DNA from: Siphonodentalium dalli
Taxonomy: Eukaryota > Mollusca > Scaphopoda > Gadilida > Siphonodentaliidae
Assembly (NCBI GenBank): GCA_032622095.1
Contig: CP136068.1
Location: 48,540,443 to 48,604,442, forward strand
Length of the DNA stretch: 64,000 nucleotides
Direction of reading: 5' to 3'
Shown: positions 13,740 through 63,235 of the stretch, piece by piece
How positions within the stretch are numbered: the stretch's first letter is position 1
How the letters are laid out: each line of letters begins with the position of its first letter
Position numbers and translations under genes: made by a program
Notes under the pieces: model-generated
Told to the model about the DNA's origin: nothing
Database searches by the model: none
What the model saw: only the letters and a program-made list of their open reading frames with translations

Positions 13740-14358
13740 TTACAAACTATGTATAACATTGTAAATCAGAGGGCCCCTACTTACCTCACTAAAATAATAC
13801 CACCCAGGATAGCCGATATATCCGAGTATGAATTCAGAATATGAATTCAGAAACCCCGAAATATTTTACACATACTTTAGCAATACCGAGCACTATAAAA
13901 AGTCATTTTTTCCCTCAACAATAAAAGCGTGGAACGACATGCCTTCCACAATAACAGAAGCTCCGACGATTTTCGATTTTAAAGAATATCTTAGAATAAT
14001 TGATCCCACCGCTAGACCTCCAATATATTTCTATACAGGTCGTAGGAAATATAATGTATTGCACGCAAGACTAAGAAACTATTGTAGTGATCTTCAGTCT
14101 GACAAATTTCAGAATTATATTGCAGGAAGCCCACGTTGTACGTGCGGCAACCAGTGTGAAGATGCCTATCACTACTTCTTTATGTGTCCCCACTACCAGT
14201 CAGAACGAACTGAGATGTTTCATATGCTACACAGAGAAGGAATTAAATTAACGCACATGAACAATCTACTTGCTGGCCTCCCGAATGCTCATAACAAACA
14301 AAATGTGAAATTATTCAAAATAGTCCAGCATTTTATCGCGGAGACTAAACGTTTCTAG
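13740..14358 (+). pseudogene. LINE reverse transcriptase C-terminal region, one frameshift
   Basis: The 176-codon frame 13,828-14,358 has STIKAWNDMPS, a basic RRKYNVLHARLRNYCSDL segment, and a C-x-C-x3-C...H-x6-C zinc-knuckle-like motif (CTCGNQC, HYFFMC), then ends KTKRF-like (AETKRF). These are the hallmarks of the tail of CR1/jockey-like reverse transcriptases. The same protein continues upstream in a different frame (about 13,762-13,839, NIVNQRAPTYLT). The frames are separated by a 13-bp tandem duplication, TATGAATTCAGAA, at 13,827-13,852. Confidence 0.85.
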
Positions 14359-16338: not shown

Positions 16339-16497
16339 TGCATGTATACTATAGTGTTAACTTCTTTTCTGTGTAAGCTTACCCCACATTCCTCCACACT
16401 TAATGCTAATACATGTATAATATAGTGTTAACGTATGCGTCCTTACTTCCTTTCTGTGTAAGCATACCCCACATTCCTCCATAGTTAATGCTATTGA
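16339..16497. repeat. Tandem duplication (about 75-85 bp) covering the end of the ILEI gene
   Basis: TATAGTGTTAAC...CTTTCTGTGTAAGC(A/T)TACCCCACATTCCTCC...TTAATGCTA occurs twice. The right copy (16,411-16,497) is inside the last exon of the minus-strand gene; the left copy lies just beyond its stop. In both copies the minus strand reads ATGTGGG|GTAWGC, a potential splice donor. Confidence 0.8.
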
Positions 16498-16567
16498 TCA
16501 TCGTGCTTCCATAGCTTGTACTGAGATATTCCTTTGTAGGTAACCCCATGTACCAACTGGCTTCATT
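16406..16567 (-). CDS. ILEI gene exon 8 (terminal): last ILEI part
   Basis: Acceptor TTGTTTACAG then 53 codons in phase 0 and TAG. Residues 299-351 start NEASWYM, matching the D/N-E-(A/G)-S that follows the core strands in FAM3 and POMGNT1, and continue with YGSTMI and MWGMLTQKG, equivalent to the family's GS-x-x-I and W-x-F-x-x-(Q/R)KG. An alternative donor at MWG|GTATGC would skip the last 20 residues, so the exact C-terminus is uncertain. Confidence 0.75.
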   Translation of the reverse strand, partial: NEASWYMGLPTKEYLSTSYGSTMINSINYGGMWGMLTQKGSKDAYVNTILYMY

Positions 16568-19500: not shown

Positions 19501-22500
19501 AACGTGATATCGGACACAAATATTCCAAAATGAATGTATATGATGGTATCCATGTGGTCGCCAATGACTCTTCTATACGATCAATGTATAACATCACACC
19601 ACGATGCCAATAGTTTCCCACAGAGACAAACGAAAGGTGATGAAAGGTCAGAAAAATTGCATATTTTCACATTTCGGCGGCCATCTTGGCCGCCATATTG
19701 GATTCTGGTGTCGGTTTTTTCGCTAATTTGTAAGGGTTGTATATTGCATAACGAATCGAGCGGAAAACAACCTGTCTGCAGTATAAAATTATTTCTGGTA
19801 GCTCCGGTCTCCGGAAAAACTTATATGTTTTATTGAAACATTCAGCTTGTCTTTCACAACGCAAAATCATGCTTGCTTTCTATTGTTAGTTATATATGTT
19901 AGACATCACCTGACTAACTTTAATGTGGGTGCGTTCCATTAGCCCGATAATATAGAGTATTGCACTTTTAGTAGAGTTGTCTTTCTTGGACACGCGCTGT
20001 TGGCGAATGTCAAGGTCAGACTGATGTGAATGGAGATTCCAGAGACATAAATCGAGATTCGAGATTGCGTCGGATTTTAAGAGGGAGGTCAAGTGACCAA
20101 TTTTTAATGGGGATTTCCATGCAAATCTGCGGAGCAAAAGTTACAGAGTTGCACATACTTCTGAGTGTGACTTGATGTGGTATTGAAAACAACAGGTATT
20201 TATCTGGCGGATCCGCTTGAAACTTGTTACATTATAATGTTGGTATATTTATTTTTGAATTTTATATTGATTTTCAAATGTAGGTCAAATGATGTAATTT
20301 CAGAAAAACAATTCTCAAAAATGTATTAGTGCAAATTTTTATAATTTACCAAGCGGACCCGCCAGATAAATACCTGTTGTTTCCAATACCACATCAAGTC
20401 ACACTCAGAAGGATGTGCAACTCTGTAACTTTTGCTCCGCAGATTTGCATGGAAATCCCCCATTCAAAATTGTTCACTTGACCTCCCCATTAAAGAAACT
20501 GAGTTTATTGTTGTATAATTTGCTGAACTCTGATTATTGTTTTACATAAAGTATATGAACATCGACGCATTATACGTTCTAGCATTCGCGATATCCCGGC
20601 CATTGTGAAGTCACTGCCATGCTTATTTTACCGGTGACTGTACATCTTCACAAAATGTGCCCCCAATAATAGGTTTGCCCCACCCCCTGCCCTTCAGTCC
20701 TTCCGGTGGCCCTGTCTTTAAAGCTGCACCAGCGCAGCTCCCATCACGGAAGGGTTAAATGTACAGAAGACGTTCCCGGTGTGTAGAGTTGAACAAATAT
20801 TACGAAACTTTTCAAGATAATATTAACAAAAAGAACGTGAAATTGGACAGGCTTTTTTTTTTTTGAAATCTTTTACAGTAGAGCGAATTAACTAAGTCAG
20901 CAAACACCGCCGTTTTTACGACATCCTATTTTGTCGCTAATCAAAGAACAATAGCACTCATGAAAATCTTGCAAAATTTTCTTGTAATTACAGTAGTGAG
21001 TAATACAATTTCATTAAATTTAAATAGTGTAATAACTCAATTAATATAAGTCCCTCTGACATCGATGCCCTATCATTCCATCATACCACCCATATAATTA
21101 ATGGAACTATATATATATAATAGTACAAACATCTCTGTTTGACATTCTGGCTGTTGCCATCGTTGCGTCGTGGATCGTGCCCAATTTCCCATTTCAAATA
21201 TTTCAAATAACCATCATTTATCATCTCCATCAAGCAGTCGGACCTCCAGTGAGCTTGGATCGCCACCTCTCAGGATGAACACGCAACCGCTAATCCCAAT
21301 TAGTGTCACTAATATGCTGGACTCCATGCATGTCACGCCTTGTATGAGCTGGTCACTCCACGCTCACAAAGGCGGATACCAGTTGATTCTGGATTTCCAG
21401 GGTTTCCAGGGCTCTCTACCGGGAGTGGACCGGATAATACCAGATCAGCACGGAAGCCTCGACAAAAAATGAAGAAGAAGAAGAAAAAAACACCATCGAG
21501 AAACAAAGAGATGCCGCGAGACTCGCTGCATGGAAAGCGAAAAAGTCGACGGAAACTCCACCAGTCGACTCCGCCCATACAGCTGGGATCCCGGCCCAGT
21601 CTGCACAGGAGATGGAATCTCCACCACCATCACCACCACCATCACCACCACCATCACGGCCAGACGAGGATACTGAAGACGAAGACGATGACCCCTCTGA
21701 CTTCGTCCCCAAGACTCCGGAGTATACCGAGCCGGAGCCTTCATCCTCAATTGAAGCAAGAGCCGCCGAAACCATGAGAGGAATCGACTTAAAAACCATC
21801 GATATAGATATTATCCTGCAGAAAATATACGAAGATTTCACCGGACCTTCTCCGCCGATCTCACCGCTTCCTTCATCATCAACATCAACATCTTCTACTT
21901 CACCACCACCGAAGAAGAAGAAAAAGAAGGAAAACAAAAAAAAGAAAAGAATAACAGCTAGAATCCCATTTCCCCTGACCCACCTGAGCCACGGCCTAGA
22001 CAATCGCTGGTACTTACATGTCCAAAACAAATTCAAGTCAGGGCATAAGGGCGATCTTCGGATGAGCCCACCACCGTCCTCGTGTCGCCATTCGGGCGGG
22101 CACGCAAACTCTTTTCACGACGGCGACACATTAGGTGAAAATGTGATGCTAATTGGTGTGTGATATTCATTGTATGTTTTGTTATTTAATAACAATATAG
22201 AAAAAATTTAATTTAACACACCGAAGAGCCAAATTGCACGACAAATGGGCCAGTGTGAGAATATAGTATAAGACGAAAACGCGGCCAACCATTACATTTA
22301 TTGGTATTAGACGTACCTTCGTGAGGAAAAACACATAATCACCTATTACTACAGTGTCTAGGAAAGCAGCGATGTTGGAATACTGTTCAACTTGATGTGT
22401 GTCGAATTTTCCGAGGGCAGTTTTCGTTCCCTGTAAATAATCCGTTAATATTATAATTTAGACAGTGAAATTATTAGTCAATTAATACCCTTTATGTTAA

Positions 22501-25500
22501 TACACCGACCATTTGATGAAATACACTCCACGCATAGCCTTCTTTTTTGTGGATGTCGGTATGGGTGCTACAATATGCCAAACGACCAAATGTTTGTGTA
22601 TACCCGTATGTGACGTTTACTTTTAACTACATCAAAGGTCCAGAAATTATACTTATATTTAAGCAATGTAGCAGTTTTAAATATGTCTACATGTAAACTA
22701 AAATAAAGCAGCATAAATATGTGATTACAACCATACGACGCCATAATGTAATTAATATGCACCCAATAGTCATCTTACATTATTATGGAACAACACGTTC
22801 TCGCAAATGGAAAACACAAGGCAACCAGCTAATATTTTCCAGATGGTAATAGGTGGTGGGCTGGTGTATATGATATGGTTACCGAGTTACTGGAAGGTGA
22901 CAGTCTCTTTAAAAAGCCGATGGTAATGTTACCAGATCTATTTCTCACGAAATCCAAATCTATCTTATTTATATGACGACGGGGGAGGGTTCTGTCCCAA
23001 TATCACGTTATAAATTGTTTCCAAATATAGATCGAGTAACTGGTGTAGTAAATGTTTGTGATAATCGTAGTACTCAGTTATAGTTCTACAAAAACAACAG
23101 GATGCGATAAAATAATCAGTATAATAAATAGCATTGACTGATCAAAACTCGAAGATTTTGTTCTCCTGGATTGCAATGAGTATTTTTATCGCATTCATTT
23201 GTGAATATATCGTCATTTATTTTGTGTTATAAAATGTGTCGTGTTTCGTATTCGTGGGGGAAATGGTCAGCACGCCATTGATCTCCCAAAAAATATAACC
23301 AATCACGAAGCGATGTTTATAATTGGCATCTACATTTTAAAGATACGGGCGGCGTTGGCGGTGGGTATGCTGTTAAAATATTCACCTCCGTCAAAAACCG
23401 CCATAAACAGAAAGAATAGTAAAATATAGACAGACTTTGTTCTTACACCAATCAGAAATATGGCATAAACAGTATGTTATTGTCATTTTTTTCCTTTGTT
23501 GTGTAAACAAAAGCAAAAAAACGTTACGTTACCTGTCTTTTGTTTAGATCCGGATATGGTAAACATAAAGAGCGCTATTGGCTACTATTTTCCTGATATG
23601 GAAATAATAAAGAGCGTTTATATAATTTGTGTGTGATTAACCAATAGAATTGCGCTGTGTTATGTAAACAGAAGCACAACTTATGTAACACGAGCAGGCT
23701 CTTGTCTACGTACACCATCGTCCGTCTTGACGACACTATACTATTTACGCGCTGATTATGTTTGGCATATGAACAAAACTATATATATTTTAATATTCAT
23801 TCTGTTGATGGCGATTTGAACAAATATGAATATTTCTTCAACGAACGCCGCCTGTGCCTTTAAAGAGATTTTATTTCGCTTGAACGGCGATCAGTCTGAG
23901 ACATGACTACTAGAATGAAGGTATAATCCCATCTATACAGAAATCAGATCTGAATAGCAGTTCTAGAGACGAAGATGTGATAAGATTATCACCAGTCATT
24001 TACAGATACTGGTCACGTGAATTGAGTTGATGAGGTATAATGTGTGAATGTACATGTACAGCCTAGTTAGCGCCATATAATGATACTTACTGATGTTTGA
24101 TCCAGTATATATATGTTGATGCCCCGTGCCCCCGAACCCAGGTTCTGGAAATAAATGAAACATAAGGTACGTATAGAGACAAGGTGATCAAATACGTTAG
24201 TCCACACTTCTGAGATATATATTTCTTATTTACAGGGTATTTGAATATGATTTGTATATTATCTGTATATGATTTGTATATGATTTGTGTATGTATATGA
24301 TTTGTATATGATGTGTAAATGATTTATATATGACTTGTACATGGCTTGCACGTGGTTTGTAATGGTTTGTACATGAGTTGTACATTGTATATGATTTCTA
24401 TATGATATGTATGATTTTTGTATGGTTTGTATATTATTTGTATATGATTGTTGTATGATTTATATATGATGTGATATGTATATAATATTTGCATATTATT
24501 TGCATATGATTCGTAAATGATTCGCATATGATTTATACATGTGCATTGTGTGTATTTGACGTGTGTATATCGTGTGTATATGATTTGAACATTATTTGTA
24601 TATTGTTTAATATATGATTTGTAAATTGTTTGTATATGATTTCTGTAATATTGGTATATGATGTGTATATGATGTGTGTATATGATGTGTGTATATGATG
24701 TGTGTATATGATGTGTGTATATGATGTGTGTATATGATGTGTGTATATGATTTGAACATTATGATTTGAACATTATTTGTATATTGTTTAATATATGATT
24801 TGTAAATTGTTTGTATATGATTTATGTAATATTGGTATATGGTGTGTATATGATGTGTATATGATGTGTGTATATGATTTGTATATGATGTGTGTATATG
24901 ATGTGTGCATATGATTTGAACATTATTTGTATACTGTTTAATATATGATTTGTAAATTGTTTGTATATGATTTCTGTAATATTGGTATATGATGTGTATA
25001 TGATGTGTGTATACGATTTATAGATGATTTGTATGTGGTTTGTAAATGATTGTTATATGATTTCCATATTATTTGTATATGATTTATATATGATTTGCAA
25101 ATGGTATATAATACGTGTATATGATTTATATATGACTTGTATCTGATTTGTATGTGATTTCTAAATTATTTGTACATGATTTGTATATGATTTATATGAT
25201 TTGTACACGAATTGTATATGATTTGTATACGATTTGTATATAATTTGCATATGATTTGTATATGATGTGTATATTTGATTTGTTTTGATTGATTATTATA
25301 GCTACACAATGTCACGAGTGATTGCTTGTTGTTTCTTATTAAATATTTTAACGCTAATTGTGGGTGAATGTCATCTGAAAAACAACTTGTAGAATTTGGG
25401 TTCAACTCAAACCCTGCTCATATATGATAGCTATGTTTCAACGTTTTCGGTCTAGCGGGTAAACAAATTTCCACACAGAGAGTTTCACTGGGAAATAGTT

Positions 25501-28500
25501 CACTGCAAGAAGAAACGACCGACCACCAGAAAGAAGCCAACAAACCTGCCCAGATATGTGATTCAATTTAACGTCCGTGTTCGTGGATCACTGATATCGG
25601 GATTCGTTCGAGCTTCGTCATCGCCGGAAGTCTAGAGCTCTGCTGTACTTACCAATCCATTTCTCTGTACCTTTTCAATCCAATTTTGCACATGACCATG
25701 ATAGAATGGTGCTGGATTAAAAACACAGTAAACAATTGAGTCATTGGTTGGATACGTTCACATATACATTAATGACTTTGCGTAGATGATCATACACATG
25801 AATCGTCCCTATCGAATGGGCGCATATCGTATCGTGTCAATCCAAACTAATTTCGGTTAACGCTAAATATATATCTTTATTCCTCCATATAATGAAGAGC
25901 ATATATACATGTATACACATTATAAATAAATCGAGAACATACAAACACATCAGGAATTTGGCTATATAATATACAGGGTTATATAATTTGACTGACGACG
26001 AGATCATCAAGAACGCAGCATTTAGTGTATAAAAGCATGCGTATATTCACGACATATATATGCATGCATACACACATATATATATACACCTGATTATACA
26101 TATTTATATATGCATGTAAATAATCTTACATACACCATAGCATACGAGAAACCTTATGCGACACGGGTGTATGGCGATATATAGAGTATGAAACAGTTGA
26201 GGTTGTGCTGAAATGTGATGTTCGCCGAGCTCGTGACATATACTGTGTTAAAAGTTTATCTGACGTACAAACAGTTAACTCCAATTGCGGATATTGTATT
26301 TCTGAGTTCTATATTGTTCCAAGCATTTGATAGTTATGCGGCAATGGCATACAGCAATGCATATCCGATAAATGATGCAAGTGTTATTATGGATAGGGCT
26401 TGTACGGTAATGCATCCTGGAGAGTACTATGATGATTTTATGGATGTCATTTAAGGTGGGGTTATCATGAAAATATGTACGTATATTCTGTACTAATAAC
26501 GTACGACTGTATGGGTATGGAAATATGGGTAAGTGAAGTATATAATATATAGCATATATTCGTCGGAATGATGCAAGATATTGAATTGGCCATTATTGAG
26601 ACAGAGCTAATGATGGTAGTGATACCAACTGATTGCAAATGTATTAATAAAAACATGGCTATTCTGCTCTGAAAGAACGCCGATCGCTTTACTCAACCAT
26701 TATCAAAATGAAACCGTTTCCACATAAATGCGGCTGACCGAACCGGCAAGCGAGTCAGATTGGAGTGATCATCTGACAGTAGAGCGAGATCTCTTGGAGG
26801 AGATCACAGAAGGACAGACAACAGCTGCAAACGGGGTAATTGGTCCAGGCAGAGGAACCATTCAATACCATATTGGTAAAATGACATGATACCAGATGTC
26901 ATTCCGAATATGTAGCAATGACTGGCAGTCTAAGGCCCTTTCCAAACGACGGATTTTTGTCGACTCGAATCTAATACCAGACCCACAATTGTATTAAATG
27001 CGTCAAAATGCGACGCTTGAAACAATTAGATCTGTGTCAGACGGGGTGCAGGACCTGGTTTTCTGGACGTTTCGGCACCTGGGTTTTCGGCACTTGGTTG
27101 TTTCGGCCCAGGTGCTTGGACGTTTCGGCACTTCGCCGAAGACGTTTCGGCACTTTACTTGTTTCTTTTTGTTTTCTTTTCATATATGACATTGTCTTTG
27201 CTGTTGGTATAGCATCGAACGTGCAGCAGCGGAATTTCCCAATATGAATACCGACAGGCCAAGAGACAACAAACGCCAATCGACTTTACTTGTTCGTCAT
27301 GCCCCAACCTTGTATATATATTGATTTCAACTTGTTCTACCGTGGGTAGGGTTACCCAACCATTTTGGGTGTTCGGCCGCTTCACTATTTATGTGGTACA
27401 TTTTGTTTTTGAAACATCGTTATTGATGTCCCTCTTATATATCGCGAATTGATCGGATGGTCTGTTTTGAGAGCTATCATGTTATGACGTATGAGCTATC
27501 GACCAATTTGATTCTCACATCGACACGACATCAACAGCCCCTTGATAGAAGTGTCTGGACTTCATACTCCTCACTCGGGTGCAGTGTTTGTGAGTATATC
27601 AGGTATTGATGGACCTCTTATATATCGTGAACCGACAAGGCTATCTGTTCAGAGAACTATCATAATATGACGTAGCGAATCGACAAACGGAATTTTCAAA
27701 TCGACACCACACCACCAGACTGTTGATAAAAGTGCCTGGACTTCAAGCTCCCCCCCCCCCCCCTCGTGCAGTATGTGAGTATCTTAGCAATATCATTATC
27801 GATGACCCTCTTATATATCGCGAACAGACAATGTTGTCTGTTCAGATAGCTATCATAATTTGAATTGACCAACATAATTTTCACATCGACGCCGCAGCAT
27901 CAGACCCTTGGTAGAACGGCCACATGTCGATATATATGAGTAAACATTGTGCATCTTGAAATACGCTACGTTAACCCATCCTATACATGGTTTGCGACAT
28001 GACGCTATGATTCCGTTAAACGAATCCACGATTCATGACCGTATTGCGCCTGTGTCAATAGCTGGTTAATTTGAATTTTGCCGGAGCCGATTTGAAGTGC
28101 GTCCAATCGCTTTGGGAGTCTATCACATTTATTGAAATAAAGAATACAAAAAAAAAAATTGTCTTCACTCATAATTTCGTTGGTCTGAAAATTAGCAGGT
28201 GCCGAACAGTCCAAGGTGACGAAAAGTCAGGTGTCGAAACGTCCAGGTGCCGAACGGCAACCACAGGTGCCGAAACGTCCAGGTGCCGAAACGTCTAGCA
28301 TTCGTCAGACGCATCACAGACAAACTCCGTCCAATTCAGACGAATCTTCGTAGGTGATGCGTCTGAAATCCGTTTTGGTTCAAACGACGGATTTTTGACG
28401 ACTCGAATCTAATACTTGTGACGAGAGATCCGAAAGTTGCCGAAGTAACGAATGCAAATGATATGATAATGATATTTTAATGGTATAATAATGAGGGGTT

Positions 28501-31500
28501 TCCCCTTATCTGCGGAAATACCCACATGACGTCATTTGTCGCACGGTCTCTTTGTTATAAAGAAAGATATATATATATAAGCATTGTAGCTAACTTGATT
28601 AAACAAGTTAGCATCTGACCAATCACTAATAGCCATTTTATGTCGGGGGTTTCTATTCGTTGTGACCTAATGACTGTTTGGTGCATGCGCAGCAAAGGGG
28701 CCATGCATATGGCCTGGTGTTGTAAGCTAATAGTAGTCAGTGTTGCACGGTGTGGCTAGGGCAAAAAACAAGCCGAAGATGATATGTGTAAAATGTTTGA
28801 AGCATGAATTTGGCGATAGGTCGTTATCAAAGTACGTTATACGTGTGATAGTTACGTCATGAACACAGTGTTCCCCTATCGTTTTGCGATAATCGCCAAC
28901 CAAATTCACATTTAATAATGAATTGAATAGCGCTTAAGCGCAATTGATTGCGCTTAAGACGTTAAGTGTAATTGATTACAAGTACTTAAGCGCAAATGAT
29001 TGCGCTTAATCGCAAATACCACATATTGTGCTTAACCACAAATAGGGCATTTACGCTTAAGCATAATAAATTGCGCTTAAGTGCAATGATTTGCGCTTAA
29101 GTACAATGAATTGCACTTAAGTGCAATTAATTACGCTTAAGTGTGAGTGTCACTACTATCTAAGAACCTACCTATTGTGTATCACCTAGCAACACAAGAG
29201 GAGCATTGGGCTAATTTTAACCTGTTTTAATTAGCATGAGTACTCAACAGTCAACTGTGACTATGATAATCCAATTACATATCAGCATCCCTATATCTGA
29301 AGAATTGATGTCTCCTTCCCGGAACTCTAGTAATTTTTTATATGATGTTTTTTATTGTATTTTATCACATATTTGGAATTTAACTAGTAGTATGGTCATA
29401 TGCCATAGCATGCATGTTGTGTCACTGCATGAGCGCTTGCCCCATATGTTTACTTATTGACTTAAATCAGGGGAAAAAACCCTATTTTAATATTATCAGC
29501 ATCCCTGTCCCAAAACTTCTATCGCGAGTAGTCCCAACCAATAGAAAAACCCGACATATAATGGCTATTGGTGATTGGTCATATACTAACTTGTTTAAAC
29601 AAGTTAGCTAACTTGATTAAACAAGTTAGTAACTTGATTAAACAAGTTAGCTAACTTGATTAAACAAGTTAGTAACTTGATTAAACAAGTTAGCTAACTT
29701 GTTTGAACAAGTTAGAAAACTTGATTAAACAAGTTAGCTAACTTGATTAAACAAGTTAGCTAACTTATTAAACAAGTTAGCTAACTGGATTAAACAAGTT
29801 AGCTAACTTGATTAAACAAGTTAGCTAACTTGATTAAACAAGTTAGCGAACTGGATTAAACAAGTTAGTTAACTTGTTTAAACAAGTTAGCTAACTAGAT
29901 TAAACAAGTTAGTTAACTTGTTTAAACAAGTTAGCTAACTGGATTAAACAAGTTAGTAACAAAAGAGGAGGTGTCGGTTCTACGCTGCCGTAGCATTGCT
30001 TTGGTAATATTGTGCAAATTGTAATTATTTTGGTAGTTTGATTTCTCAACGAACATGGCATGTCACTGACTCACATCTTATAATGGATATAGTATCAATG
30101 ATTTATAATAATTCATATATACCGGTATAAGGGGTAGGGGTTGTAGCAACTGATTTATAATAATTAATATAGACCGATATTCCTTATTGTAAGGAATAGG
30201 GGTGGTATTCTCTGATGTATAATAATTAATATATACCGGTATTACTTATTATAAGGGGTAGGGGTGGTACCACTGATTTATAATAATATTCATATATACC
30301 GGCATTACTTATTATGAGGGGCATAAGGGTGGTAACCTCTTATTTATAATAATTCATATATTCCGGTACTACTTATTATAAGGAGCAGAGTGGTAGCCTA
30401 TGATTTATACTAATTTATATATGCCGGTATTCCGTATTATAAGGGGTAGGGGTGGTAGCCTCAGATTTATAATAATTCATATAAACCGGTATTACTTATT
30501 GTGAGGGGTCGGGAAGGTAGCCTTTGATGTATAATAATTCATAGATATCGGTATTCCTTATTATAAAGGATATAGGTGGTAGCCTATGATTTATAATAAT
30601 TAATATATTGCGGTATTCCTTATTATAATGGGTAGGGGTGGCAGTCTCTTATTCATACACATTATTGTATTCCTGTATTTACATGCATGGTATACACATA
30701 TATGGCAATTGGTTGCACGATATAACATTTATTTATTGCGCCTATTATAGTATATTATATAACTATATGTACTATATACATCCTCATATACATGTGTACA
30801 TATATTCGCGCTGCAATCGCGCATATATATATACATAATTTATACTGTATTTTAGTATATATATATGTATAACATACCGGTATATATAGGCCTCTATATC
30901 TACGAGTGGCCATTTTGTGACGGTAACCGGGAATCCACTTTTAAATAAATCGACCAATGTATTAGATTCGACGTGACGAAGATGCGTCCGTCTGAAACAA
31001 AATTGACCGCAGTCGCATCACCGACGGATTTAATACAATTAGATTCGAGTCGACAAACATCCGTCGTTTGGAACGGGCCTAAGATGTGTTGTACTACACA
31101 CGAGTAGGTCGCTAAACCGTGTTTATGTGTGTCTTTGTCTCCGAACGCTGTATGTGCGATTGACTGCGAAGTCGTGTCAAGGGAAATACAAGGAAACAAT
31201 TGCAGAGGAATTTAGTTTAATTCTGATGATCACTTACTTGAATCACATGTTCCAGGATAGGCTGTAGAAGTCTTATAGTACGGCATGCATTGACAGGTGT
31301 GAAGTATCTGGTCACACTGTGTCCCATCTGCCGAACAGTGCTGGTAACACACGGCTCCGTGTGTGGTGCCCACGACTACAAGAAAGTGTGTTCATTCTCG
31401 GTTATTAAACCTGGTTAAGCTGTCGGGCTATTAAGGGAAATTTATTTTGTTAAATATAATAGAACAAAGGGATAACAGACTTATATTTAAAACAAAGAGG

Positions 31501-34500: not shown

Positions 34501-37500
34501 ACCCATAAGTGAGACAACACTTATCTTCAAATCCCATTGTCTGAATAAAATTGGATGTGTTATATACCATATGCTATCAAAATGAGACAACTAATTATGT
34601 TTAAATTAAACCGTAATTTTACTTAGCAGTATCGCTTTGACCCAGACAATAGTATATCTAGATTAACAAGTCCCGCATTAGCCATTAACACTTTCTTTGC
34701 TGAATGGATTCTCCCACCCAGTTATAAAAATGTTAATTGGAAGGGTTTAATAATCATTTGGAGGGATGTTAAAGGAAAACAAAAGGCACACGAAAATGTC
34801 ATGCAAGTGCTGAAGTAATCATATTCTTTGTTGGGATACTAAGTTCAACATATTTGTGCGGCCTATGGCATTTGTTGATCTTATTATCGGAGATATGTTA
34901 TCCCAAATGGGGCCGGCCACAGAATAATGCATATAACACATCTCCCGTACCGTACCGTTCCAAACACTGGACGTATACATAGTTCTTCGATCAAGAAATA
35001 TTAACGCAATGCGCGTGTGTTATTGTGAATCCGTTCCTTGGTTGGCCAACACCACATTTGTGTTTTCGTTTTTTAGCCCACAAAGGACGTTACCCCTTCA
35101 AAGTTTGCGTTTGGGATTTGAATTCGGTTGGGCGCATTAAGCGCGCGGTCATAGACTGATATATCGATAATGCACAGGTAATGTATTGGGATAACTTACA
35201 ATGCTATATGGTATGATCTCCATATTTCCGCACAAAAATAATTTCGGTTGATTGTATGGATACTAATATTGTGGTGTGCGGTGCTACAGTAGTTACGTAC
35301 ATAGTATAATAATTAGCTTTCTGTTTCTTTATTTGCAATCAGTCAGCTGAAATAACTGTTGTAACTTTTTCCCAACTCTGCCCTTCTTTTGGATAGTATG
35401 CCACATAGCTCCAAATACAAGTTATAGATTTTTTTTCCATTTCTGAGTTTTGATTACGTGGTACCGGTTAGCTGTATGGGCTCTTTTAGTTTTGGTATGC
35501 AAACAGCAAGCAGTGTCTTCTTCTCACCACCATTATCAGTTACACATATCACTCATCAATGGAAATATTTGATATTTAGTTTGCTTTCGTGTTTTCGAAA
35601 CATCAGGTTGCGTCACGAAAAACTTATTGATAATCGCGCTCCACTTACTTGGCTCGCAGATTCCAGGATCGTCTGAGGAGACTATGTGGTATTGTATACA
35701 TTGACATGTATGTAACGTTTGGTCACATGTCGTCGCCGTGGCAGTACATTGTCGGCAACAGACAGCTCCGTGTGTCGTTCCGATGACTGAAATGAATATG
35801 ATGTACCACTTCATTCATTACTGAGGAAGGGGTAGCTTTCATGGTGGCTGTATTATAAAACTATATGGAGTGTATTATATGGAGTGTATTATATGAAGTT
35901 TGGGTTTTCGAGATTCGCATTCAGGTCGAGCTACCTTTCTTCATATATTTCTTCGTATATCGAGGAGTCCATCAGGGTGCGATTGACATGTAGAATGTAT
36001 GGACTAGCTTACAGTGTTAGTTTTGCATATCACCTAATAAGGAAAAAGCTATATAAATATAATAAATTAATGTAGTTTGGGTTATCTTTTTGGGGATATG
36101 ACTCTGTGACCGATGGAGAACATTTATTGCGTGAAGCAAGATACTACATTAATTTCTTTAAGTTATGTGAAACACTCATGTAGGGTGATCCAATAGAAAT
36201 GGGGATATAATCTTGCTTAAAGTAGTTATTTTTACCAATATTAATCCAGAATTACAACACATACCCTAATAATTCTTACATATTAATTAAATGCAATTAC
36301 TTTCGATGGCGAAATCATTTGCGTTGGTTGCGTCCCGAATCGATATGTAAATATTTACAATCGTGCTTAGTTCAGGCGATGTTTTCTATGGAGTTGTCTG
36401 GTTGATTTCTTTGAGATTTTCGGCGATGTTAGTAGAATGCTCCATTCCTCCTGTTGCCAAAGCGTCTGAATACTAACACATCAGTTTCACACACCCGAAC
36501 AAGTCCATAAAATGTCTTTAAATTAAGTAGTTATCGACCGACATTTTCTAATGGCCGGAATGTCAAAATATTGACACATTACTATACATGTTTATCTTGA
36601 AGCCTGCAATTTGTATGGGCCGATAACAATTTAAAATACATATCTCACCCCAATTCTCCGAACCTAGGCACTGGTAACCGAGAGCGATGGATAAGTCCTG
36701 TGTACACGTAGAGTAACTTCCACATGGATATCGACTGCATGGGGTCGATGCTACCTGTAATAAGTGAAAAACGTCATAAGACCTATTGCAACATTCTTCC
36801 GTAGACGGTCGTCGCCAGCTGGTTTGTGTCAACGCTTAGCTATTGTGTGACCTTTATTTATAGAATGCCCTTTATTTATTTGTATGCCCTTTATTTATAG
36901 ATCAGAGAATTTACTTTTATCGAAATTTAAGTATTAATGGCTTTCAACCATTAGAAGCTAATCATTTCTTATATGGGGTTAAAGTTATATCAAACCACAA
37001 GCACACTACTCTTTTTCGCATTACTCAATCTTTTACAGCTAGAACAAAGCGGTTTGAACAAACCCATGTATGATAACATGGTAAATCTCGCCATTCATCA
37101 TTCAAACTCACTGAATTCTAGGCTTTTCTTCATAACCGAGATTGGAATACAGATGAAAACCCGACATCCGCAGCACACACACACTCTGCACTATTATGTA
37201 TAAACACTTTGTGCTATATCTGCTATGTATTTTATGTATGTTCCAGGTTTGTATTACAAGAGGGGCAAGTTTGTAAGTTTTGTAACTTGTGCCCCGATCC
37301 CTATGTATATTTTTCTAGATACATTAAAATATGTTTAAAGTAAAAATGTAAAGTAGTTATTGTGAACAATTAAGATACGTTAACATGGCATTTACTTTTG
37401 TTAGCTGTGTTAATGTAGCCTGGACCCTTTCATGGCGGGAGCTGCGCTATTGTAGCATTAAGGATAATGTACCAGTGCAGGAGCCTCGCATATATAACGA

Positions 37501-52500: not shown

Positions 52501-55425
52501 ATACATAACTATTTCAATATAATTAGCTGGAGCATATAAACATCCCATCGTCGTAACAAACTGATGATGCAGTGATGGTCTACAGTATGTAGATCCGCCG
52601 TGATCGTGTTTAATATATACATTTGTCTTCAGCAACGATAAGAATTGAAAATGTCATCAGATCCAAGACTTTTTAAAAGTATTTCTGTCAGTTTTGAATT
52701 CGCGCAGCCAGGTGCGCGAATTTAAAATGCGCGAATTCAAAACTGAGCGAAAAATAGTACTGCGTAAATTTAAATACGAGTAAGGTATTGGTATCTCCGT
52801 TATATGAGGAATTCAATTGTATCGTTTGTGTAAACATATTTACAATCCCAAATTAACATAAACATACATGTATATCAATTCAGATAAAAGCAATATAACG
52901 AAATACATAAATGAAATTCTTGTAAAGGGCCTTAACCCTTTACCCAACAGAAGGGCCCTGTGCCAATGCATTATCGTATATATGCGAGTCGACCATAGGT
53001 CGCCTCGCATATATAAGAGAATGCATTGGCCTAACACATTAAAAATTATAAAATTGTTAAAGAATGTAAGAAAAAATTGTAAAAAGTGTTAAAAAATGAT
53101 TTTTTTTAGGCCAATGCATTCTCTTATATATGCGAGGCGACCTATGGTCGACTCGCATATATAAGAGAATGCATTGGCACAGGGCATAACTGTAACTATC
53201 ACTATGTGGTCAAGGAGCCGGTTCCAATGATATCCATATTTGTATGGTTCTATTGAGACAGACCGAAGATATTTTAGGCTGTTGAAGCTTTATTTGGCCG
53301 GTTTTGGCCGGTCTGTTGGGTAAAGGGTTAAGTTTGTTCCCAGCTGTGTTGTTTGAATGTGCTAAAGTAATACTATGAGTCCCAATGGGAGTTGGAGGAG
53401 GACCACCAAAATCGATAGCTAAATTTATTGAATTTCAACGAAACATTAATTCAGTAGAGAAGGGGTTCACATATAAGTTGATGTATCCGTGAGAAAAGGA
53501 ATATTTAGCGATTAGTTTCAGCTTCGAAAGTGCGTGCAGCACCACCCCACCCACCCATGACACAGACAATGTTTGTTTAAGGTAAAATTGTAAGTGCAAG
53601 CTTTGTTTGTCAAGAAATGTCTTGTAGGGATATATGTGCATGTTATCCGAGAGTAAGCACGGTCAAATGCGTGGTATTCATGTTACATACGTATTTGTAT
53701 TTTACATGCATTTTTGATATTATAATATGCTGTACGATATGCACACTGAATCTGCATACTATATCATATATATACACACTGAATCTGCATACTATATCAT
53801 ATACACACTGAATCTGCATACTATATCATATACACACTGAATCTGCATACTATATCATATACACACTGAAGCTACATACGTTAACATGTCTTTCTAGATT
53901 AAAACTTAGTTCCTAGAATTCGTAGTTGTTATTCTGTAAATAATTTATTATTATTCGAGTGAAACGATTAAAACATATAAAGACATCTTATCGCAGATTT
54001 TCTCCAAACGTATTGACATCACATCGAATGGTTGATATAAAACATTTCCGAAATTGCGCCTTCTGAATCAGGGATGGATTACGGAGCAAGGCATCAAAAT
54101 TTCAATCAAATGTTACAGCCGCATTTTTTACATGATATATAGGTATAGATATCTATATATATTTCCACGATTCGAGCATTCTAATTGTGAGCATGGATTT
54201 AAATTGATGCCACTGGAATCAGTGACGATGCTTGGTGGAAGGCAACACAACTCTACCGAGCTCTCTAAGTATACAATGTGCATTATTTTCATCTATCTAA
54301 CGGTGAAGTTTATAGTTGAGCAAGTGGTGCTGTCCGAGTCAGGTAATGATGACCAGTGGAAGTGGCACCAAACTTTATTAAAAGAACTCTCGCCGATTTC
54401 ACCGATATGGATATCTTCATGATTCGACATATAGCGTTGTTTAATTTTCTGAATTAGTCGCGCTGAGTCAGGGGGGGGGGGGGTATCTGTGAACCATAAT
54501 AGTTAGGTGCTCGGCTTATTCTTTCGAATTAATTAAGAACACAGAACTATTTAGCCAATTCGTATTGTGCATATTTACTATAGTCGGTATACTGGTACAC
54601 GTATGGAAATATCAAAGCTCTGATTACTTGTTTACATGGACAGCGCCAGATAACCCTGCCGGGACACAATGTATACATAAATTAGATACAAGTACGTACC
54701 CACCCTAGATGGCATAATCTACCGGTATGCGATTATTCATTCGTTTTTCTCTTTTTGCTGTGACAATTTAAAATTGAAGGTTAAGAGAATCGGAATATCA
54801 AAATAAAATTGAATCGAAAATCACCTAGCATAACGCGAGATATCTCCCTATACAGTACTATGGATAATACTGATTAGAAGATAATTGTTTTAATACTGTA
54901 AGAAAATAGATTAACATAGCACATGTTTGAGTATATGTGTACTTAAAGTTTAATGATAAGATGTCAATTCATGAAATAATATAATACAAATTAGTTTTCA
55001 CTTAATTGGATAAGGTTTATTAGAATAGGGCCATAAGTTATGACTGAAACATTTGAAGCCAAATTTACTACACCCGTTAAAAAAATTGTCTCCAAACTTT
55101 CGCAACAAGGGTAATTTCTTCAGTAGTACAATGTACCTACCGCGGGCGCTTTATCGGCGTATTCATACTGTGGACCGACGGGGAAATTTCCTGTTCCAAA
55201 CTCCACGAAGTAGCACATTCTGGTTGCGACATCGAATGTCACGGACTGGCATCCGACGGTGTAGACACATGACTTTTGACATCGCCGAATGTTGAGAGTT
55301 CGAAATGTAGGGTAAGCTCGTAGACCCGCCCCGGGTAAGTAATTGGCACCACAGTCACTTACAAAAGATGTATAAAACATAACTGCTAAAATTCTTAAGG
55401 AGCACAAGTTGAAAGTAGAACTCAT
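16406..55425 (-). CDS. Secreted PAN-EGF-EB-EB-ILEI protein, 8 exons
   Basis: Eight exons with clear acceptors and donors (55,425-55,141; 36,754-36,649; 35,786-35,649; 31,375-31,238; 25,711-25,653; 24,144-24,091; 22,430-22,317; 16,567-16,406) join without a phase conflict to 352 codons including TAG. Predicted order: signal peptide (1-23), PAN/Apple (about 25-90), EGF-like module (96-130), two near-identical Cys-rich EB-like modules (131-176, 177-222), linker (223-242), ILEI domain (about 235-340). PAN and EGF modules mediate protein or carbohydrate contacts. ILEI domains occur in FAM3 cytokine-like proteins and in POMGNT1, where the domain binds carbohydrate. The product is therefore likely a secreted recognition or signalling protein; its function is unknown. 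The model assumes no unseen exons. It is supported by phase agreement at all seven junctions. Confidence 0.85.
16728..16852. mobile_element. Decayed double-hairpin fragment related to the TTAA MITE
   Basis: CCCTGTGCCAATGCAT..., TTGCATTGGCCTAACA, and GCATTCTCTTATATATTCGAGG...GCACTGGCACA match the hairpin arms of the piggyBac-like MITE. The TTAA ends are missing. Confidence 0.7.
17440..17935. repeat. Degenerate tandem array, about 35-40-bp units
   Basis: Repeated variants of GGCCACTCTAAC...CATTCTATGTG (about a dozen) in the DNA between exons 8 and 7. Units vary in length and sequence, indicating an old array. Confidence 0.75.
18485..19770. mobile_element. Fold-back element, about 510-bp inverted arms, rich in YY1-like motifs
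   Basis: Arms at about 18,485-18,995 and 19,266-19,770 are reverse complements with about 85% identity by eye, separated by about 270 bp. Each arm carries two clusters of AAGATGGCGGCC/GGCCGCCATCTT, and more copies occur at 18,411 and about 19,145. AANATGGCGGC is the core of the YY1 binding consensus. No transposase is visible. The element lies in intron 7 of the ILEI gene. Confidence 0.8.
20082..20489. mobile_element. MITE with about 130-bp terminal inverted repeats
   Basis: GGGAGGTCAAGTGACC and the following 115 bases recur in reverse complement ending CACTTGACCTCCCC. The arms include GCAAATCTGCGGAGC and AACAGGTATTTATCTGGCGG. The 130-bp centre is A/T-rich. There is no coding region. Confidence 0.8.
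21170..22163 (+). pseudogene. Pro/Ser/charged-rich frame, broken; possible retroelement ORF1-like
   Basis: Three partly overlapping plus frames appear coding-like in sequence. The main one, open from 21,438, has EKQRDAARLAAWKAKK, a Pro/Ser run, an acidic stretch (DEDTEDEDDD), IDLKTIDIDIILQKIYEDF and a Lys run. The upstream part (from 21,170) is in another frame, so a frameshift near 21,440-21,480 is likely. The mix of basic and acidic low-complexity is reminiscent of ORF1/gag-like proteins, but I do not recognise a family. It sits in intron 7 of the ILEI gene, antisense to it. A host gene is possible. Confidence 0.35.
22317..22430 (-). CDS. ILEI gene exon 7: central ILEI strand region
   Basis: Acceptor TTATTTACAG and donor AAG|GTACGT bound a 114-bp phase 0-0 exon. 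Residues 261-298 include GKFDTHQ, matching the FDT(H/Y/W) signature of ILEI domains, then NIAAFLDTV and a hydrophobic strand (GDYVFFLTK), where FAM3/POMGNT1 have F-x-x-I/V-x-x-G-x-(I/V)(V/L). Confidence 0.85.
23336..23864. mobile_element. MITE, TTTAAAGRYACRGGCGGCG ends, copy 1
   Basis: Left end TTTAAAGATACGGGCGGCG pairs with right end CGCCGCCTGTGCCTTTAAA. The body, including GGTAAACATAAAGAGCG and GTTATGTAAACAGAAGC, matches 45,961-46,435 in the same orientation. No coding region. Confidence 0.8.
24091..24144 (-). CDS. ILEI gene exon 6: start of ILEI domain
   Basis: Acceptor CATTTATTTCCAG and donor TCA|GTAAGT bound a 54-bp phase 0-0 exon. Its 18 residues contain GSGARGINIYILDQ, equivalent to the GRGIN(V)x(L)(N/D)Q strand that opens the ILEI core in FAM3 and POMGNT1. 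The exon is in frame with exon 7. Confidence 0.85.
24236..25290. repeat. AT-rich minisatellite, about 11-13-bp GATTTGTATAT units
   Basis: About 1 kb of degenerate repeats of TATATGATTTGTATATGATG with higher-order repeats (for example the block GATTTGAACATTATTTGTATA, seen three times). It occupies most of intron 5 of the ILEI gene. Confidence 0.9.
25653..25711 (-). CDS. ILEI gene exon 5: linker into ILEI domain
   Basis: Acceptor TTTTTAATCCAG and donor TTG|GTAAGT bound a 59-bp exon. Entered in phase 1 from exon 4 (completing a Thr codon) it stays open and ends in phase 0, exactly what exon 6 requires. It encodes PFYHGHVQNWIEKVQRNGL. Short but fitting on both sides. Confidence 0.7.
26218..26454 (+). 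CDS. Doubtful small open frame
   Basis: 78 codons from ATG with a fairly protein-like composition, ending MHPGEYYDDFMDVI. No splice support and no family recognised. It lies antisense in intron 4 of the ILEI gene. Probably chance. Confidence 0.15.
   Translation: MFAELVTYTVLKVYLTYKQLTPIADIVFLSSILFQAFDSYAAMAYSNAYPINDASVIMDRACTVMHPGEYYDDFMDVI
27045..28305. repeat. Inverted CGTTTCGGCACCTGG arrays flanking a 3x tandem repeat
   Basis: Short units GGACGTTTCGGCACCTGG at 27,065-27,155 recur inverted (CCAGGTGCCGAAACGTC) at 28,190-28,305. They enclose 27,422-27,965, three tandem copies of a unit of about 185 bp beginning ATTGATGNCCCTCTTATATA. A C run (27,751-27,762) interrupts the second copy. Confidence 0.7.
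28589..29608. mobile_element. Non-autonomous element with palindromic termini
   Basis: About 75-bp inverted ends (28,589-28,665 and 29,532-29,608) each begin with the palindrome AACTTGNTTAAACAAGTT followed by GACCAATCACYAATAGCCAT. Inside are the repeat related to 13.4-14.8 kb (28,770-28,900) and the CTTAAG array. No coding region recognised. Confidence 0.7.
28930..29148. repeat. Array of GCGCTTAAGCGC-type palindromes
   Basis: Some 15 variants of (T)GCGCTTAAG(T/C)GCAAT are spaced at about 15-20 bp. Each is a near palindrome centred on CTTAAG. Confidence 0.8.
29586..29958. repeat. Tandem array of the palindrome AACTTGNTTAAACAAGTT
   Basis: About 17 copies of a 22-bp unit (GCT or GT plus the 18-bp palindrome). 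It continues directly from the right end of the element at 28,589-29,608, whose terminus is one such unit. Confidence 0.9.
30085..30655. repeat. Satellite-like array, about 60-bp unit, about 9 copies
   Basis: Unit: GATTTATAATAATTCATATA, then ACCGGTATTACTTATTATAA, then GGGGTAGGGGTGGTAGCC, with scattered changes. In intron 4 of the ILEI gene. Confidence 0.9.
31238..31375 (-). CDS. ILEI gene exon 4: second EB-like Cys module
   Basis: Acceptor ACACTTTCTTGTAG and donor CAA|GTAAGT bound a 138-bp phase 1-1 exon. Residues 177-222: V-G-TTHGAVC, C-x6-CDQ-x-LHTCQC and YPGTC. The Cys spacing fits EB-like/EGF-like modules of invertebrate secreted proteins. Same length, phases and Cys positions as exon 3. 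Confidence 0.85.
31748..31882. repeat. Long palindrome, about 135 bp
   Basis: GCATCTTAATCGAGACTC... pairs with ...GAGATTATGATGC, and the centre CGAGATCGTAGCTCG is self-complementary. Confidence 0.75.
33263..33727 (+). mobile_element. piggyBac-like double-hairpin MITE, copy 2
   Basis: TTAA-bounded, ends CCCTTTACCCAACA/inverse, two hairpins as in copy 1. It is about 65 bp longer because the A/T spacer between the hairpins is duplicated (AAAATTGT(C/T)AAAGAATGTA repeats). Lies in intron 3 of the ILEI gene. Confidence 0.85.
33866..33994. repeat. Long palindrome, about 129 bp
   Basis: AGAGTAATCAATTGGTTGCG pairs with TAATTGATTACTCT. The inner part GCGAGAGACGT...ACGTCTCTCG pairs around a short loop. 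Confidence 0.75.
35649..35786 (-). CDS. ILEI gene exon 3: first EB-like Cys module
   Basis: Acceptor CATTCATTTCAG and donor CCAA|GTAAGT bound a 138-bp phase 1-1 exon. Residues 131-176: V-I-GTTHGAVC, CRQC, TCDQTLHTCQC, DPGIC. Near-copy of exon 4 with identical Cys register, so one arose from the other by exon duplication. Confidence 0.87.
36649..36754 (-). CDS. ILEI gene exon 2: EGF-like module
   Basis: Acceptor CACTTATTACAG and donor TGGG|GTGAGA bound a 106-bp exon, phase 0 in, 1 out. Residues 96-130 read TPCSRYPCGSYSTC...GYQC, the C-x4-C-x5-C...G-(Y/F)-x-C start of an EGF domain. The last two EGF cysteines (C-x-C...C pattern) are not in this exon, so it is either a shortened EGF or shares cysteines with exon 3. 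Confidence 0.8.
36928..37350 (+). mobile_element. Second 5'-truncated LINE copy (same family as 13.7 kb)
   Basis: From about 36,934 a frame reads LEANHFLYGV...LFRITQSFTARTKRF, equivalent to the end of the reverse transcriptase at 14,260-14,358 (LLAGLP...LFKIVQHFIAETKRF). It is followed by a 3' UTR with the same hairpin and the same end (ATTAAAATATGTTTAAA). Only about the last 40 codons plus 3' UTR remain. Confidence 0.75.
37260..37295 (+). other. LINE 3' UTR hairpin (second copy)
   Basis: GGGGCAAGTT, a loop, then AACTTGTGCCCC: a 10-bp stem with one bulge, conserved with 14,617-14,650. Confidence 0.65.
37476..37600. mobile_element. Decayed double-hairpin fragment (TTAA MITE relative)
   Basis: GCCTCGCATATATAACG, GTTAGGCCAATGTATGCTC and TATAAGAGAATATGCATTAGC match the hairpin arms of the piggyBac-like MITE with many changes. 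Confidence 0.6.
38306..38462 (+). repeat. Minisatellite, about 46-bp unit, 3.4 copies
   Basis: Unit GTAAATGTTAAGACACGCGC followed by ACCCTGGTAGTGATAGTG. The middle copies are identical, so the array is young or homogenised. In intron 1 of the ILEI gene. Confidence 0.9.
38470..43600. other. Intron 1 sequence without a recognised gene
   Basis: Only short chance frames; a C run at 39,521-39,530. A TGAAACTTAGTACATATGTTC segment at 41,431 resembles 47,998-48,022 (dispersed repeat). Confidence 0.5.
43600..44480. repeat. Degenerate repeats with CGAGTCAGGG...GGCACCA motif
   Basis: CGAGTCAG followed by a G-rich stretch and GGCATC/GCACCA recurs near 43,652, 43,908 and 44,171, about 260 bp apart, and again near 54,338. 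Probably an old tandem or dispersed repeat. Confidence 0.45.
44840..44996. repeat. Near-perfect palindrome, 157 bp
   Basis: ACACAGAACGACACGG... pairs almost without error with ...CCGTGTCGTTCTGTGT over about 76-bp arms. The centre is GAGGCGCAAGCGCCTC. CpG-rich compared with its surroundings. Confidence 0.9.
45961..46435. mobile_element. MITE, TTAAAGRYAC ends, copy 2
   Basis: Same orientation and order of motifs as 23,336-23,864. Ends ATTAAAGACACGGTTGGCC and GGCCGCACGTGCCTTTAAT. Confidence 0.75.
46376..47520 (-). other. Cluster of minus-strand open frames, unrecognised
   Basis: Three frames (47,519-47,310; 47,127-46,870; 46,693-46,436) have fairly protein-like composition. The first follows GCACTGATTTCAG, a plausible acceptor, and reads CAFNVRVSDGTFSIVYLIP. 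They do not join in an evident way and no family is recognised. They may be a decayed gene in intron 1 of the ILEI gene, or chance. Confidence 0.25.
47845..49400. other. Intron 1 sequence; dispersed repeat at about 47,960-48,110
   Basis: GCATGAAACTTGGTGTATATG...GGTTGCTAGGCAACTACC looks like a dispersed non-coding repeat (compare 41,431). No gene recognised. Confidence 0.4.
49441..49600 (-). CDS. Candidate exon, unrecognised
   Basis: Minus-strand frame of about 50 codons with strongly coding-like sequence: KITVQVKDFFDDS, GGKGRDVFVHGKRKLMLF. A branch-point-like CTAAC lies upstream and CCAACCAGGTCAG|GTATGG could be a donor. The alternating strand pattern with a basic GKRK turn suggests a beta-rich domain, but I cannot name it. 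It could belong to a retrogene or an unseen gene within intron 1. Confidence 0.3.
49690..50180. repeat. Dispersed repeat with GACCTTGAA / AAGGTCAAGGTCA blocks
   Basis: Starts CTAGCAGGTGGACCCGACTT and contains three to four imperfect repeats of GATTTGACCTTGAATTG plus AAGGTCAAGGTCA(C/G)GT. The look is that of a SINE- or LINE-end-like family common in invertebrate genomes. Confidence 0.55.
50614..50810 (+). repeat. Tandem repeat, about 55-bp unit, about 3.5 copies
   Basis: Unit: GGGTGCAAATGGAATTATGC, AAAACNTGTGTTTGGTCTGT, GATTCTGATTCAAGG. A G run (50,721-50,734) separates copies. 50,900-51,600 beyond it is TG-rich degenerate simple sequence. Confidence 0.85.
52075..52243 (+). repeat. Minisatellite, 19-bp unit, about 9 perfect copies
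   Basis: TCTACTGTCTGTCTCTCAC repeated with essentially no variation. The three overlapping open frames here are products of the repeat. Confidence 0.95.
52688..52746. repeat. Short palindrome with GAATTCGCGCA arms
   Basis: TCAGTTTTGAATTCGCGCA pairs with TGCGCGAATTCAAAACTGA across a 20-base centre. Confidence 0.85.
52932..53331 (+). mobile_element. piggyBac-like double-hairpin MITE, copy 3
   Basis: TTAA-bounded 400-bp copy with ends CCCTTTACCCAACAG and CTGTTGGGTAAAGGG, two intact 68-bp hairpins and an A/T spacer. Same orientation as copy 2; opposite to copy 1. In intron 1 of the ILEI gene. Confidence 0.88.
53737..53872 (+). repeat. Minisatellite, 29-bp unit, about 4.5 copies
   Basis: ACACACTGAATCTGCATACT plus ATATCATAT repeated, nearly identical copies. 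Confidence 0.9.
55141..55425 (-). CDS. ILEI gene exon 1: signal peptide and PAN/Apple domain
   Basis: ATG at 55,425 opens a 95-codon exon ending in donor GCG|GTAGGT, phase 0. Residues 1-23 are a good signal peptide (hydrophobic core LRILAVMFY, cleavage expected near S23). Residues 25-90 have the PAN/Apple cysteine pattern: C25, C49, C53, C59 and C71, with SVTFD between, matching C-x3-C-x5-C-x-(A/S)-(F/V)-x(F/Y)...C. The frame is open upstream to 55,500 without another ATG, so this start is preferred. The exon is 18 kb from exon 2. Confidence 0.85.
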
Positions 55426-62926: not shown

Positions 62927-63235
62927 TTTAAATATTATTTTCTTCTATTTCTGAATTACGCCTATTTACGGAAAATCTGAAGAAGTAAATAGTTGCAGAC
63001 GATAACATCGTCATAAAACGCTTTTTAAATAAACAAAATTAACGTATATTGCACTGTAAGAGTGTTGATAGCATGGAATTTATTTTTTTATTTCTATTTC
63101 AGCAGTTAGTCATATTTTATAACGTTTATTTCTTTAGTATTTCAATTTTAATCGTAATTATTTTCTTCGAATCACCGAAGAATTTGACAGTTCAAAGGTC
63201 CGCCCACTCGGATTTTACAACTCCACTACGAGTGC

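Follow-up and report, generated by a model that had tools for sequence, protein, structure and literature searches.

Introduction

The ILEI domain has been studied in a few conserved proteins (FAM3 and POMGNT1), and its ligand is not settled. FAM3 proteins are small secreted proteins that consist essentially of a lone ILEI domain and are not known to have PAN, EGF or EB modules, and ILEI domains are also carried by CEMIP/TMEM2. POMGNT1, FAM3C and FAM3A are reported to bind sugars, the POMGNT1 stem holding GlcNAc via Arg129, Asp179 and Arg207, three residues shared by FAM3 proteins and by that domain of the worm protein FAMP-1 which binds sugar, and a FAMP-1 domain without Asp179 and Arg207 shows no sugar binding (PMC9802357). 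Titles in the reference list of the same paper indicate that the fold of ILEI proteins is a non-cytokine one (PMC9802357).

The protein described here is encoded in a stretch of 64,000 nt of the Siphonodentalium dalli genome (assembly GCA_032622095.1, contig CP136068.1; C8:48540443-48604442), hereafter the window. Its domains are known, its layout is unreported as far as seen here, and its pocket is changed. The combination of PAN, EGF/EB and ILEI was not found in the literature searched for the architecture or its parts (in part the best 20 of 13,359 and the best 20 of 54 entries), and the protein may sit in databases under a locus number.

How does it compare with the closest described systems? 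It aligns with the POMGNT1 stem (PDB 5ggj) across the ILEI domain, including the equivalent of Arg129, but no GNT-I match follows its ILEI domain, the equivalents of Asp179 and Arg207 are N and G, and PAN and cysteine-rich modules precede its ILEI domain. Like the FAM3 family (FAM3B, PDB 2yop), it has ILEI close to the C-terminus and is probably secreted, but it differs by the PAN and cysteine-rich modules before that domain and by its changed sugar contacts. Caenorhabditis elegans FAMP-1 (M70.4) is also an invertebrate protein with FAM3-like domains, one of them a sugar binder, but its FAM3-like domains are described as being in tandem and accompanied by another C-terminal domain, unlike in the window protein (PMC9802357). 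Finally, a PAN match and an apple-like model of modest confidence link exon 1 to the PAN/apple proteins (PF00024; among them the lectins SML-2 and TgMIC4, of apple fold), but here a single PAN domain sits at the N-terminus of an ILEI protein. On balance, we lean towards the reading that the window encodes one secreted protein with a PAN/EGF-like/EB-like stalk and a lectin-derived ILEI head, which would have been retargeted from GlcNAc and would belong to a multigene recognition family.

A predicted gene of eight exons

A span of 39 kb holds one eight-exon gene, predicted from genomic sequence (Table 1). When joined computationally from genomic DNA, its eight minus-strand exons give one open frame of 351 residues ending with the stop codon TAG, and all seven introns are of the GT...AG type, with phases 0, 1, 1, 1, 0, 0, 0. 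The sequence-only reading, made before any search, had proposed just this (eight minus-strand exons, seven phase-compatible junctions, 351 residues), with coordinates that proved right almost to the base.

Table 1. Exons of the window gene, with positions in the window.
Feature	Positions	Strand	Phase	Support
Exon 1: PAN domain after a signal-peptide-like start; 95 residues	55141-55425	-	0 out	PAN_1 match
Exon 2: EGF-like module, four cysteines	36649-36754	-	0 in, 1 out	Weak relatives genome-wide
Exon 3: EB-like six-cysteine module and one extra cysteine	35649-35786	-	1-1	33-module alignment, splice sites
Exon 4: EB-like six-cysteine module	31238-31375	-	1-1	Relatives on C5 and C8
Exon 5: 20-residue link into ILEI	25653-25711	-	1 in, 0 out	GT/AG sites, relatives at five paralogous loci
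Exon 6: ILEI start, ARGIN motif, equivalent of POMGNT1 Arg129	24091-24144	-		Part of joined ILEI match
Exon 7: ILEI middle, FDTH motif	22317-22430	-		Part of joined ILEI match; borders common to 9/9 rows
Exon 8: ILEI end and stop	16406-16567	-		ILEI 18.8 bits alone; acceptor codon common to 19/19 rows

Relatives of the gene were sought in the whole genome (2.23 Gb in nine contigs, C1-C9). The exon 8 acceptor falls at the same codon and in the same phase in every row aligned, and the exon 7 borders are placed identically (the window is included in both counts), while the donor of the PAN exon falls at the same codon in 22/22 rows read, of 30 loci. The weakest exon is exon 5, for which there is one candidate under strict splice rules and 42 under loose ones. 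A genome search with the exon 5-6 part returned ten matches: two in the window, five to exon 5, two to exon 6 (C8:106209152 and C5:253680707) and one stray on C3 (E 10). Each of the five places with an exon 5 relative lies between an EB exon and the ILEI exons of a related locus, and it is because of these relatives that 25711-25653 was chosen. An alternative exon 5 at 31093-30939, which resembles the missing first ILEI strand, was rejected owing to its weak splice sites.

The introns of the gene contain long arrays at 24197-25261 and 29565-30705, in which the copies are about 11-13, 22 and 62 bp apart. Rfam and tRNA scans of the window gave no matches.

Domains of the encoded protein

The ILEI domain at the C-terminus, which the sequence-only reading had assigned to exons 6-8 from its motifs, is borne out by a full-length match of the joined exons to the Pfam profile (PF15711; 55.9 bits, positions 1-90 of 90, cut-off 27), scoring 52.2 bits in the whole protein. 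Exon 8 alone stays below the cut-off, and segments with exon 6 or 7 give no match at E up to 1; since the joined exons pass the cut-off and no single exon does, it is the joins that make the domain. In the PDB, the POMGNT1 stem comes closest in sequence (E 6.8e-5), followed by FAM3B (E 7e-4). The stop codon comes 12 residues past the ILEI match, and no GNT-I match was found in the window protein by Pfam search. In the FAM3/POMGNT1 fold, a first strand precedes the ARGIN motif. It has no clear counterpart in exon 5, no exon was recognised for it between exons 4 and 6, and none turned up when the surroundings of 30 related ILEI matches were scanned for its motif.

The PAN domain proposed for exon 1 is likewise upheld, with 26.5 bits against a PAN_1 (PF00024) cut-off of 21.4 (22.7 bits in the whole protein), and PAN_1 is matched by 18/18 aligned PAN exons. 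An AlphaFold model of exon 1 has a mean pLDDT of 62, and its first Foldseek matches are to apple domains, those of SML-2, TgMIC4 and factor XI/kallikrein, with E from 2e-3 to 6e-2 and never as low as 1e-3. A hydrophobic start, read by eye, precedes PAN both here and in 17 aligned PAN relatives, from which we infer that the window protein is probably secreted.

The cysteine-rich modules in between are present as resemblances to EGF and EB, but these Pfam names, used in the sequence-only reading, are hardly supported: in the window protein neither is matched at E up to 10, and EB (PF01683) is matched by two of the 33 module relatives (best E 0.0042). Exon 2 has four cysteines versus the six expected of an EGF-like domain, and its relatives across the genome are weak (E 0.01 to 9). 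The modules of exons 3 and 4 are 58% identical, exon 4 reaches 77% identity with modules on C5 and C8, and six cysteines are invariant across the 33 aligned EB-like modules. A profile search with the EB alignment against the PDB gave three matches at E of about 0.8 to CRISPR nucleases, which were taken as chance, and NCBIfam gave no match at E up to 1.

Related loci in the same genome

The window gene is not a single oddity, as the genome searches give at least 13 loci, including the window, with EB and ILEI exons in a row. At least 12 other loci, on C5 and C8, have one or more EB exons and then exon 7 and/or exon 8 on the same strand and in window order, five of them with exon 5 and two with exon 6, all in window order (this ordering drew on the best 50 of 77 EB-part, 49 of 56 ILEI-part and 30 of 150 PAN matches).

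The same modules are linked genome-wide. Outside the window, 23/53 ILEI-part matches have an EB-part match upstream of them on the same strand, at most 60 kb away, compared with a mean of 0.08 and a maximum of 2 in 1000 runs of random placement. Relatives of the EGF exon are within 25 kb downstream of a PAN exon in 14/26 cases when the 150 PAN matches are used (random mean 0.016, maximum 2) and in 17/26 with a hand-picked subset of PAN matches. As for EB-part matches, 4/74 (one of the four being an EGF match) have a PAN match no more than 60 kb upstream, against a random mean of 0.13 and a maximum of 2. These counts used 76 of the 77 EB-part matches (two of these rows are really EGF matches), 56/56 ILEI-part matches (rows that include tandem copies at one place and the open frames on C1) and 150 PAN matches, from which the window's own were then removed, and random placement assumed a length of 215 Mb for C9. 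Because duplicated loci are not independent, the counts are statements on linkage, not probabilities.

The weakest join of the gene model is that of exon 1 to the remaining exons, and the window could instead hold two genes: one for PAN-EGF, whose end would lie at exon 2 or within the 18-kb intron, and another for EB-EB-ILEI, with a start of its own. This would agree with the widespread occurrence of PAN and PAN-EGF without ILEI, and with the fact that 10 of the 13 EB and ILEI loci have no PAN match upstream among the 30 PAN matches first used, to which the list of 150 adds none; however, missing PAN matches say little, as the PAN search scored 150 of 316 candidates. Two genes appear improbable to us, since exon 2 is only 0.86 kb from exon 3 and phase-compatible with it, all 22 PAN exons read have a phase 0 end and could be followed by EB only via a phase 0-to-1 exon like exon 2, and PAN, EB and ILEI occur in a row, among the PAN matches listed, at two loci besides the window (C8:107.45-107.53 and C8:106.57-106.63 Mb). 

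Several side observations concern these relatives. The PAN family is large (at least 150 exon matches genome-wide, from the 150 of 316 candidates that were scored, and 125 in a second search), with clusters on C1, C2, C7 and other contigs, and most of its matches have no ILEI-part match nearby. Pairs of similar EB-ILEI loci are found inside C8, inside C5 and across the two contigs, a pattern like that left by segmental duplication (e.g. C8:103.695-103.711 with C8:124.018-124.034 Mb, and C5:251-254 and C8:106-108 Mb). On C1, two near-identical open frames of more than 840 residues (L001 and L002, at 56.14 and 56.75 Mb) have two ILEI domains, followed in L001 by a GNT-I match; this layout recalls nematode FAMP-1, whose counterpart is likelier to be this pair than the window gene. 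Minisatellites seeded by the end of the ILEI exon, and running on behind it, are seen in L007 (1608-1944, 112 bp x 3.0) and L017 (1611-2258, 59 bp x 11.1); in the window there is one faint further copy of the motif just past the stop, and a tandem-repeat search just behind exon 8 called none.

Sugar-contact residues of the ILEI head

In the PDB-search alignment, the window equivalents of POMGNT1 Arg129, Asp179 and Arg207 are R, N and G. Computed across the 21 exon-8 loci read (with the C1 frames left out), the replacement is paired: N is found at the Asp179 site in nine loci, whose Arg207 site is G, A or M in 9/9, and D in 12, of which 12/12 keep R. The nine N loci form one group, with support 88/85 in a tree from 40 columns, so that the simplest account is one paired change, not nine. 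As two of the three GlcNAc contacts are replaced in the window clade, we infer, by analogy with FAMP-1, that its ILEI domain probably no longer binds GlcNAc as POMGNT1 does.

These residues also bear on the possibility that the window protein is a FAM3-like signalling factor, with an ILEI end that acts on a receptor and N-terminal modules that only localise it. Such a factor would fit with a C-terminal ILEI, with the lack of an enzyme domain and with FAM3B being among the best PDB matches, but not with the amplification to a dozen loci, which is unusual for a signalling factor. Moreover, the contacts changed in the window clade are among those reported to be conserved across FAM3 (PMC9802357), and we consider FAM3-like signalling unlikely. 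The term cytokine-like, offered by the sequence-only reading, finds no support, since the ILEI fold is a non-cytokine one and POMGNT1, FAM3C and FAM3A are reported to be sugar binders (PMC9802357).

Rates of change in stalk and head

The EB exons are conserved, with dN/dS of 0.08-0.45 (mostly 0.1-0.3), and 0.15-0.30 for exon 4 of the window versus nine relatives. These and the following ratios cover pairs with dS between 0 and 2.5, which leaves out window exon 3 and the EB pair L045-L046 (two amino-acid changes, no synonymous one). In recent duplicates, the ratios for exon 8 are 1.07-1.80 among L009, L014, L016 and L018, 1.39 for L010-L011, 0.80 for L024-L028 and 0.62 for L007-L008, and those for exon 7 are 0.64-1.47, with 0.29 in L019-L020. 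Compared with its two nearest relatives, the window gene is constrained in exon 8 (0.32 and 0.36) and less so in exon 7 (0.89 and 0.68). The window copy is older and its exon 8 constrained, so the fast change is one seen in its relatives.

Rates at amino-acid sites of exons 7-8 were also compared with those of the alignable introns beside them, in four duplicate gene pairs. There is a clear excess in L010-L011 (0.072 vs 0.020), an about twofold one in L007-L008 with L012-L015 (0.054 vs 0.028), little in L014-L018 with L033-L034 (0.018 vs 0.011) and none in L019-L020, the only D-type pair (0.006 vs 0.014). Pooled over the four gene pairs, exons 7-8 are faster than introns with a one-sided p of about 0.009, the value being about 8e-5 for three chosen strata before L033-L034 (exon 7, with no change in 88 amino-acid sites) and L019-L020 were included. 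Flanks that could not be aligned (10% or more different, e.g. upstream of L012-L015) were left out, and so was L009-L014, which shares L014 (0.065 vs 0.029 and 0.031). Synonymous sites are also above introns in the first two pairs (0.053 and 0.062, on 1.7 and 3 changes), and the EB exons of three of the four gene pairs are not faster than introns (z -1.6). Within exon 8, columns 4-6 hold 7/12 changes in three pairs, or 7/14 when L014-L018 (0/2) is added; they align with POMGNT1 residues 182-184, adjoining Asp179, and a null scanning every three-column window gives 1.5e-5 for 7/12, for columns that were picked after inspection. This rate result is modest, and it suggests that the ILEI head changes faster than introns after duplication.

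Could relaxed constraint account both for the speed of the ILEI exons and for the loss of sugar contacts, by decay and not by selection? Some copies have stops inside their matches, some have coding-derived minisatellites past exon 8, the dN/dS of recent pairs is around 1, and in one pair synonymous sites change as fast as amino-acid sites, all of which is as expected of decay. Relaxation alone, however, reaches intron rates and never exceeds them, against which stands the pooled excess (p about 0.009), and splice sites are kept in the rows read, as are the W of exon 8 in 19/20 rows and its final G in 20/20. Decay strikes us as somewhat unlikely, although it is the most serious competitor of a retargeted recognition family.

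How a retargeted head might work

In the proposed mechanism, a disulfide-rich stalk, or partner-binding part, would consist of PAN, the short EGF-like module and the two EB-like modules, and the ligand-binding head would be the C-terminal ILEI domain, descended from the sugar-binding POMGNT1/FAM3 fold. With two of three sugar contacts replaced together in the window clade, this head probably reads another extracellular ligand, glycan or protein. A conserved stalk and a head that tends to change quickly after duplication would recall the recognition molecules used in defence or in gamete interaction, and the role of the window protein is possibly one of these two. The loss of two GlcNAc contacts, along with a neighbouring loop that is the most divergent part between duplicates, favours a non-GlcNAc partner, possibly a variable one, over FAM3-type signalling. 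A bolder version, which we think rather unlikely, is that ILEI serves as a variable recognition repertoire, with a conserved PAN/EB stalk, a pocket rebuilt once (the paired D-to-N and R-to-small change) and an adjoining loop under diversifying selection. Such a use of ILEI did not appear in the literature searched.

The sequence-only reading had anticipated a lineage-specific extracellular recognition factor. The recognition part gains from the multigene family and, more weakly, from the rates of the ILEI exons; the lineage-specific part is the reading's own deduction, the comparison made here being within this one genome.

A family in which the fold has multiplied and lost its usual sugar contacts would offer naturally occurring variants from which the ligand of the ILEI pocket could be learnt, the paired residue change opens the way to a direct binding test, and ILEI might add a recognition scaffold to those known from animals without antibodies.

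Neighbouring features in the window

Two other open frames were seen in the window. The first (13813-14358, plus strand) matches zf-RVT weakly (E 0.099, short of the cut-off) and is perhaps the end of a non-LTR reverse transcriptase. The second (60968-62944, minus strand) has 659 residues, with matches to DUF3504 and Phage_integrase, and to QRICH1 just under its cut-off; we take it to be either a Crypton-like tyrosine recombinase or a gene descended from such an enzyme.
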